Shown: piece after piece, positions 60,733-63,636 of the stretch
Layout of the letters: every line of letters begins with the position of its first letter
Numbering within the stretch: the first letter of the stretch is position 1
From: Myxacorys californica WJT36-NPBG1
GTDB lineage: Bacteria; Cyanobacteriota; Cyanobacteriia; Leptolyngbyales; Leptolyngbyaceae
NCBI GenBank assembly: GCA_019359315.1
Contig: JAHHHO010000024.1
Location: 1-64,000, forward strand
Length of the DNA stretch: 64,000 nt
Reading direction: 5' to 3'
Notes under the pieces: generated by a model
Told to the model about the DNA's origin: nothing
The model's input: the letters and a program-made list of their open reading frames with translations, nothing else
Databases searched by the model: none
Translations under genes and position numbers: made by a program

Positions 60733-60859
60733 GATCAACACGCATATTGAACTTAACGGATATTAACGGAACCGCCGTTCCTGCATCTCTCTGGGCAGAT
60801 GTTTCCCGCCCAACTTCCTTTCTAGGTTAGGAACGTCAAGTAATTCGTTAGGATATTCT

Positions 60860-61060
60860 ATGGTTAATCCGCCGACCATTCCCGATCCAACGGTTCCCGA
60901 TCCGGCTCCTAGCCCAACTCCCGAACCGTTTCCCAAGCCCGATCCGTTCCCGTCGCCTGTACCGGAACCCATTCCCTCTCCCGCCCCGGAACCTGTGCCG
61001 TCGCCTGTACCGGAGCCTGTTCCCACTCCCGTCCCTCAAACCATACCGGGACCTGTTTAA
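60860..61060 (+). CDS. Small Pro-rich repeat peptide
   Basis: 66 aa ending right before ychF. After MVNPPTIPDPTVPDPAPSPT it repeats (E/D)P(F/I/V)PxPxP units such as PVPEPVPTPVPQ. About 40% of residues are Pro. A run like this forms an extended polyproline II rod. The start is preceded by AGGA at 7 bp, which supports the plus strand. The minus strand also stays open as a Gly/Ser-rich frame, the natural complement of Pro codons, so coding is not proven. Function unknown; possibly envelope-linked, though there is no signal peptide. Confidence 0.5.
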   Translation: MVNPPTIPDPTVPDPAPSPTPEPFPKPDPFPSPVPEPIPSPAPEPVPSPVPEPVPTPVPQTIPGPV

Positions 61061-61085: not shown

Positions 61086-62177
61086 ATGCTAAGAGCCGGG
61101 ATTGTTGGACTCCCCAACGTTGGAAAATCAACTTTATTTAATGCGGTGGTTGCCAATGCCAAAGCCCAAGCCGCCAACTATCCCTTCTGTACGATTGAGC
61201 CAAATGTCGGTATTGTCGCCGTCCCTGACGATCGGCTAAAAGTCTTAGCCAATATTTCTAGCTCAGCCGAGATTTTGCCAGCACGAGTCGAATTTGTGGA
61301 CATCGCTGGATTAGTGAAAGGTGCAAGCCGCGGGGAAGGCTTGGGCAACCAATTTCTCGCCAACATTCGAGAAGTCGATGCGATCGTACATGTGGTGCGC
61401 TGCTTTGAAGATGACGACGTGATTCACGTTTCCGGCTCGGTTGATCCGGTGCGCGACATTGAAGTGATCAATCTCGAACTAGGACTGGCTGATTTAGATC
61501 AAGTCGAGCGCCGAATTGAACGTGCCCGGAAGCAGTCTCGCACCAGCAAAGAAGCTCAAATCGAAACGGGCGCACTCGAAAAGTTGATTCCAGTCCTCAA
61601 CGAAGGGAAACCCGCACGTCAAGTCAGTCTCACCGAAGAGGAAGAAGATCTGATCAAACCACTCGGATTGCTGACTCGCAAGCCGATTATCTATGCCACA
61701 AATGTTTCTGAAGATGACCTGGCAACAGGTAACGAATGGGTTGAGCAGGTGAGAGCGCTCGCCGCTCAAGAAAACGCTCAAGTCGTGGTGGTGTCGGCTC
61801 AAGTTGAATCGGAACTCGTGGAATTGCCAGAGAGCGATCGCGCCGATTTTCTAGAATCGCTAGGCGTCGAAGAAGGCGGGCTAAAGTCACTCATCCGCGC
61901 GACTTACGAACTGTTGGGACTGCGAACCTACTTCACGACCGGGCCAAAAGAAACCCGCGCCTGGACAATTCACGCGGGCATGTTAGCGCCTCAAGCCGCA
62001 GGCGTCATTCACACAGATTTTGAGCGGGGCTTTATTCGTGCCGAAACCGTAGCTTACAAAGACTTAGTAGCCACAGGCTCAATGGCAGGAGCCAAAGAAA
62101 AAGGCTTGGTTCGCAGTGAAGGCAAAGAATACGTCGTTCAAGAAGGCGATGTATTGTTATTCCGCTTTAATGTGTAA
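61086..62177 (+). CDS. ychF: Redox-regulated ATPase/GTPase YchF (Ola1 family)
   Basis: 363 aa from the ATG at 61086, the standard length; the seven earlier codons are not conserved. Obg-like P-loop: [21 protein letters not shown]3 [20 protein letters not shown], and G4 replaced by ATNVSEDD (NxxE), which explains the ATP preference of the family. The helical coiled-coil and the TGS domain ([20 protein letters not shown]) follow. YchF binds ribosomes and tunes stress responses. Confidence 0.96.
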
Positions 62178-62232: not shown

Positions 62233-62245
62233 GGTTGTGTATAAT
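62233..62245 (+). promoter_or_regulatory. Extended -10 promoter of the candidate RNA
   Basis: TATAAT at 62240-62245 is preceded by TG two bases upstream (TGTGTATAAT), the extended -10 form that needs little -35 contact. A transcript is predicted to start at about 62251. No strong -35 hexamer is present around 62217-62222. Confidence 0.65.
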
Positions 62246-62250
62246 TACAG

Positions 62251-62353
62251 GTAGAAAGGTTTCGCGGAAGCCTCAAAGCTGAATTTCTACGCCTAATCCA
62301 ACGGTTTGGATTTCATAGCACCTCGATCTCACGATCGGGGTCTTTTAATTTTT
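62251..62353 (+). ncRNA. Candidate structured small RNA or attenuated leader
   Basis: A compact set of helices between ychF and the ArsA-like gene. Helix 1 closes 62251-62257 (GTAGAAA) with 62284-62290 (TTTCTAC) around a hairpin 62258-62263/62267-62272 (GGTTTC GCG GAAGCC). Helix 2 is 62295-62301/62306-62312 (AATCCAA CGGT TTGGATT). Helix 3 is 62321-62328/62333-62340 followed by a T-rich tail to 62353, an intrinsic terminator. A TATAAT box lies just upstream. There is no open frame inside. It matches no cyanobacterial RNA family I recognise (not Yfr1, Yfr2, 6S, tmRNA or SRP). The third helix may also terminate ychF. Confidence 0.65.
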
Positions 62354-62445
62354 ACCTCATCCCTCATCCTTACTCCCTCATCCTCCAGTCGTGTGTGACA
62401 ATAGGGTTAAAGAATGTAAACATTTCTCATATAGGACTCGATACC

Positions 62446-63636
62446 ATGCGTGTAATCCTCATGACAGGCAAAGGCGGCGTCGGTAAAACCTCGGTGGCTG
62501 CCGCAACTGGACTTCGCTGTGCCGAATTAGGATATCGAACGCTGGTATTGAGTACCGACCCGGCTCACTCATTAGCTGACAGCTTCGATCTTGAATTAGG
62601 ACACGAACCAAGAGAAGTGCGTCCGAATCTTTGGGGAGCCGAACTCGACGCCCTTATGGAGCTTGAAGGGAACTGGGGAGCCGTCAAGCGTTACATCACC
62701 CAAGTTTTGCAAGCTCGCGGACTCGAAGGGGTTCAGGCAGAAGAGTTAGCCATCCTGCCGGGCATGGACGAGATTTTTGGACTCGTGCGAATGAAGCGGC
62801 ACTACGACGAAGGCGAGTTTGATGTACTGATCATCGATTCTGCCCCCACTGGAACCGCTTTGCGGCTACTGAGTCTACCGGAAGTGGGAGGGTGGTACAT
62901 GCGAAAATTCTACAAGCCGTTTCAGGGGATTTCGGTCGTGTTACGTCCGTTAGTTGAGCCAATCTTTCGCCCGATCGCCGGGTTTTCGCTGCCCGACAAA
63001 GAAGTAATGGACGCGCCTTACGAGTTTTACGAACAAATCGAAGCGCTGGAAAAGGTTCTGACTGACCCCACCAAAACTACCGTGCGACTCGTAATGAACC
63101 CCGAAAAAATGGTGATTAAAGAATCGCTGCGTGCCCATGCTTATCTGAGTCTTTACAACGTTGCCACTGATCTCGTTGTTGCGAACCGGATCATTCCTGA
63201 CTCTGTTTCCGATCCGTTCTTCCAAGGTTGGAAGGCACAGCAGCAGGGCTATCGCCAAGAGATTCACGACAATTTTCTACCGTTGCCTGTGAAGGAAGTG
63301 CCGCTTTATTCTAAGGAAATGTGTGGCTTAGAATCGCTCGATCGCTTAAAAGAAACGCTCTATCCCGACAACGAAGACCCGACGCAAATTTATTACAAAG
63401 AAACAACACTACGAGTCGTTCAAGATCAAAATCAGTACAGCTTGGAGCTTTACTTGCCTGGAATCGCTAAGGATCAGGTTGAGCTAAGCAAAACGGGTGA
63501 TGAATTGAATGTCCGAATTGGAAATCATCGCCGTAATTTGGTTCTGCCGCAAGCGTTGGCAGCTCTGCAACCATCTGGAGCCAAAATGGAAGACGATTAT
63601 CTCAAGATTCGCTTTTCTGACCCGGCCAAGGTTTGA
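62446..63636 (+). CDS. ArsA/Get3-like ATPase with C-terminal HSP20-like domain
   Basis: 396 aa from the ATG at 62446 ([20 protein letters not shown]), with AGGA nearby; the GTG 17 codons earlier lies before the conserved start. Deviant Walker A is GKGGVGKT, with switch [20 protein letters not shown] and switch [22 protein letters not shown]. The C-terminal 80 residues ([20 protein letters not shown] and on) are an ArsA_HSP20-type beta domain. Not linked to arsenic genes here. Cyanobacterial members resemble Get3/TRC40 and may target tail-anchored or other membrane proteins. Confidence 0.88.

Follow-up and report, generated by a model that had tools for sequence, protein, structure and literature searches.

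The spacer between ychF and an ArsA/Get3-like ATPase gene (arsA) of Myxacorys californica holds a short segment that has start and stop signals of its own and is found at the same place in ten species; it is therefore probably an undescribed small regulatory RNA. The favoured reading, held with somewhat better than even confidence from sequence comparison, is that of a lineage-restricted, stand-alone gene for a trans-acting sRNA that would pair through a short conserved core. The preliminary description had proposed a new structured small RNA at this site, and as a candidate new sRNA gene the proposal stands, given that synteny, promoter, core and terminator recur in ten genomes and that no Rfam match was found.

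Within the window, as the whole 64,000-nucleotide stretch analysed is called here, the site at 62233–62353 is flanked by ychF and arsA, two unrelated protein genes, and all three lie on the + strand (Table 1). The region before ychF (60763–61060) is of low complexity and reads as PDP/PSPTPEP-type repeats on the + strand and as Gly-rich repeats on the − strand.

Table 1. Features of the ychF–arsA region, in window coordinates.
Feature	Position	Strand	Basis
ychF (Obg-like GTPase) coding region, the 5′ neighbour; probable start ATG at 61086	61086–62177	+	ORF
Putative promoter, GTATAAT(T/C)A; the −10 hexamer TATAAT spans 62240–62245	62239–62247	+	sequence, conservation
Predicted small RNA, ~98 nt	62253–62350	+	conserved unit in ten genomes
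Hairpin 1, AGGTTTC-GCG-GAAGCCT, 7 pairs, loop GCG	62257–62273	+	sequence, fold
Conserved core AATTTCTACGCCT, the putative seed for pairing	62282–62294	+	alignment, model, unpaired prediction
Hairpin 2, AATCCAA-CGGT-TTTGGATT..., 7 pairs, four-base loop	62295–62312	+	sequence, fold
Intrinsic terminator, 9-pair stem at 62320–62341 and T-rich tail	62320–62353	+	terminator scan, compensatory changes
Upstream element/leader of arsA itself (GTTAAAGAATGTAAA...TTCTCA...GGACTC), separate from the RNA	62397–62445	+	recurrence across cyanobacteria
ArsA/Get3-like ATPase gene (arsA), the 3′ neighbour	62446–63636	+	ORF

Conservation within and between two genera

The family set comprised 42 genomes, with orthologues of ychF and of arsA each present in 41. 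The two genes are directly adjacent, ychF 5′ of arsA, in ten genomes, two of the window's genus (Myxacorys-type) and eight of a second genus (g6). The promoter/core/terminator unit occupies the spacer in every genome with that gene order (10/10), with GTATAAT(T/C)A, the core and the terminator each at the same place. The element is present as a single copy per genome, that of the window included.

The nearest genome is that of M. almedinensis, where the order ychF–RNA–arsA is intact. Between this species and the window the 136-bp RNA stretch is 85% identical, compared with 58% (104/180) of the 4-fold codon sites of ychF and 60% (113/189) of those of arsA, which argues that the RNA stretch is under selection. 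Divergence between the window's genus and g6 is greater, with only ~40% identity at the 4-fold sites of ychF. When seven g6 sequences, and none from the window's genus, were used to build a sequence-only model, its top match across the whole 6-Mb genome was nonetheless the window site (18.4 bits, E 0.0105), which also ranked first within the window (E 1.1e-4); the M. almedinensis site scored 25.1 bits (E 7e-5). Together with synteny, these matches make homology between the genera secure. Sequence comparison thus demonstrates that the element is homologous, and that its putative promoter, core, predicted terminator and position are conserved well above the neutral level.

The terminator is also the first after ychF and could end the ychF mRNA too, such that the whole might be merely the 3′-UTR of ychF with its terminator, or an sRNA processed from the ychF mRNA, the −10 match being incidental. 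However, both GTATAAT(T/C)A and the core persist between the genera, unlike most of the other spacer sequence 5′ of the arsA leader; a plain terminator needs no conserved core, and no such element lies downstream of ychF in other family members. An origin as ychF 3′-UTR is considered distinctly unlikely on these grounds. Conservation of sequence more than of structure would, for its part, suit a gene for a short peptide, or a DNA site bound by protein, instead of an RNA. Against this, no ORF of at least 60 aa lies within the element, a conserved start codon or frame is absent, the indels of 13 and 4 bases are not multiples of three, and a dedicated conserved terminator follows directly. The earlier remark that no open frame fits the site thus holds, and a peptide gene or DNA site appears very improbable.

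Promoter, terminator and fold

Judged on sequence and conservation, the candidate sRNA gene has a promoter and an intrinsic terminator of its own, which enclose a short non-coding stretch. GTATAAT is invariant across the nine aligned species. The element had been described as an extended −10 box, and although the TATAAT hexamer is indeed present, the label is inexact because the hexamer is preceded by GTG and does not form the canonical TGnTATAAT. A promoter scan at the site found no sigma-70 −35/−10 pair and no TTGACA-like −35. Eight bases after the −10 box, an A at 62253 is conserved in 9/9 aligned species, and from the position of this box the start of the sRNA may be inferred to lie at that A. 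In the proposed scheme, a sigma-70-type promoter (GTATAAT) would start the transcript at ~62253 and the intrinsic terminator would end it at ~62350, and the candidate is best read as an RNA of about 85–100 nt.

In the second genus, two related species (L122 and L124) carry GTA-N8-TAC just after ychF, 21 nt 5′ of the TATAAT of the RNA promoter, and the other species lack it. This motif is the NtcA consensus, and its spacing to TATAAT is that of NtcA-activated promoters.

The intrinsic terminator with its T-rich tail, recognized in the preliminary description, is the best supported part of the structure. A terminator scan returned two overlapping sites at the locus against 0.4 expected from shuffled sequences, and all cells of the stem (100%) are paired across nine species. 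Compensatory (both-sided) changes occur at two of its pairs, for example from C-G to G-C. At one locus (L148; G059:C694, ~1425–1630) the terminator loop is occupied by a MITE-like insert, very roughly 200 bp long, that ends in inverted repeats and has a duplicated flank (GATCGAACAATC); the arms of the terminator stem persist on both sides of it.

Relative to dinucleotide shuffles, the predicted RNA folds more stably, with z −3.1 from 62251 and z −2.5 from 62253. Without the terminator, the 5′ domain is no better than shuffles (z −0.5; −1.6 to +1.4 in other species), and single-sequence folding thus supports the terminator only. Hairpin 1 is present in M. almedinensis and absent as such from the second genus because it is built on a 13-nt stretch that is missing in g6. 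Hairpin 2, the 7-bp tetraloop hairpin noted previously, is supported by sequence and fold in the window but does not extend beyond the genus, being kept only in the sister species and paired in 45% of cells over the nine species. Across the nine species a closing helix (62251–62256/62285–62290) has 56% of its cells paired; the window sequence alone has its outer pair, and the helix shrinks for a transcript starting at the conserved A62253. The closed multi-hairpin domain envisaged at first is therefore not upheld, its helices not being conserved beyond the genus and its stability without the terminator being that of chance. A weak alternative hairpin is possible in g6, with AAGG/CCUU outside, UUUG.GGG/CCC.CAAA inside and a 14-nt loop that contains AACUUCUACGCCUA. 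This hairpin is paired in 93–98% of cells and shows one-sided changes only, and is thus compatible with the data rather than proven.

The conserved core and its relation to known sRNAs

The part that persists across the genera is the short core AA(T/C)TTCTACGCCT, also cited as UUCUACGCC. All ten genomes have TTGCGG or TCGCGG, followed by AA(C/T)TT with ACGCC. In two aligned second-genus species TTTAACGCC replaces TTCTACGCC, so the seed is not invariant. The core is mostly unpaired by prediction in 8/9 species, the mean value being 0.86–0.99 for the seven species of g6, 0.58 for M. almedinensis and 0.41 for the sequence of the window. In the last of these it is partly masked by a GUAGAA/UUCUAC helix, which shrinks if the RNA starts at A62253.

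Transcription of the sRNA and its pairing mechanism may be inferred from these features. The sRNA would present the segment AA(U/C)UUCUACGCCU, situated in the second genus in the large apical loop of the weak hairpin and in M. almedinensis, largely unpaired, in the linker between two hairpins. Most likely, this segment would base-pair with target mRNAs and thereby affect their stability or translation, in the manner of known cyanobacterial sRNAs. More tentatively, the two sister genera may hold a new sRNA family that presents one pairing motif in two scaffolds (apical loop versus inter-hairpin linker). Under the same tentative reading, the fold would have been rebuilt around a fixed seed by the 13-nt insertion or deletion, a possibility offered with limited confidence.

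The complement of the core, TAGGCGTAGAA, has no other occurrence in the window's genome. Across seven genomes the core-complement 11-mer gave 14 matches compared with 42 for the reversed control, and the RNA gene itself accounts for several of the 14; 7-mer or looser core-complement matches close before an ATG were not above the control. As this simple seed search showed no enrichment over the control, no targets are proposed.

The trans-encoded sRNAs PsrR1, IsaR1 and NsiR4 each comprise a promoter, a short RNA and an intrinsic terminator, and act by base-pairing. The candidate would be of the same kind of gene, with its base-pairing presumed, but differs from them in having no sequence relation in Rfam. 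The Yfr1 motif reads ACUCCUCACAC; this motif, which Yfr10 shares, is absent from the core described here. Yfr1 carries its motif between two stem-loops and Yfr10 in the loop atop a stem (PMC6778093). The candidate is likewise a short cyanobacterial RNA with one conserved single-stranded motif, for which both presentations are predicted, one per genus. Unlike Yfr1 and Yfr10, it has no Rfam match, another core sequence and another locus, Yfr1 being located 5′ of trxA in 3/4 unicellular species (PMC2662882), and it occurs in two genera where theirs extend to nearly all cyanobacteria. The resemblance would thus make Yfr1 and Yfr10 a precedent in design for the presentation of the core, and does not imply membership. 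The Yfr2 family consists of free-standing cyanobacterial sRNAs with conserved single-stranded motifs (PMC2662882); the candidate, free-standing as well, differs in being present as a single copy per genome and in lacking an Rfam match on its strand (E up to 10).

That the RNA is unlike known families, as first suggested, agrees with the Rfam 15 scan of the whole window, in which no covariance model matched the site at its gathering score or elsewhere; around the site, a threshold relaxed to E 10 added nothing beyond a snoRNA match on the opposite strand, judged to be due to chance. Models of the element gave no convincing match in the 32 remaining family genomes or in 194 genomes across the class, and no homologue was seen downstream of ychF or upstream of arsA in other genera. 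The element is missing after ychF in G012 too, where ychF and arsA lie ~3 kb apart on one strand. In a BLAST search of the spacer against 58 relatives the sister species gave the only good match, and the three best other matches, on inspection, were coding-like sequence unrelated to the site. Weak model matches elsewhere (E 0.01–1), where inspected, looked like coding or chance matches without promoter and terminator, and what model R1 matched in G034, and at a second G029 site, is nothing more than a similar terminator. Within the sensitivity of these searches, the candidate element is restricted to two genera. Literature outside subscription papers contained no description of this RNA, and no small-RNA studies on Leptolyngbyaceae were found in the literature searched.

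The locus adds a conserved, uncatalogued sRNA gene candidate to the Leptolyngbyaceae, one of narrow range and probably undescribed, although the kind of system is already known. Because the fold changed between the genera and the core stayed, it could serve in the study of sRNA scaffold evolution around a fixed pairing motif.

The upstream region of arsA

A conditional leader of the ArsA-like gene had been put forward as the alternative to a stand-alone sRNA. Such a cis-acting leader or attenuator would start at ~62253, with a signal deciding whether transcription ends at the terminator or continues into arsA, and it would fit the placement of arsA on the same strand ~93 bp beyond the terminator, in an order kept in 10/10 genomes. 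However, arsA has a conserved upstream element of its own, a block of GTTAA/GTAAA followed by AATGTAAA, TTCTCA and GGAC, which is placed downstream of the sRNA terminator. The same block recurs 5′ of arsA in many cyanobacteria that lack the RNA and have other upstream genes, and arsA thus most likely has its own regulatory region past the terminator. Furthermore, the terminator arm pairs almost only inside its own hairpin (probability 0.87–1.0 in nine species), so that no antiterminator is visible, and no alternative pairing that would disrupt the terminator was predicted in the nine species. A conserved stable sensor fold and a leader peptide are likewise absent, the leader-peptide reading having been rejected for want of a conserved start or frame. 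With an arsA element past the terminator, and with nothing predicted to compete for the terminator arm, the leader is disfavoured and is regarded as unlikely, though not negligible, beside the stand-alone sRNA gene.

The conserved block before arsA suggests a widely conserved control of the ArsA-like gene, separate from the candidate sRNA. At 62397–62445, and at the equivalent position in L039–L146, two GTAAA/TGTAAA-type repeats lie about ten bases apart, together with a TTCTCAG(G)CAGGAC leader. These repeats may correspond to HLR1, the site of the response regulator RpaB, which they resemble.
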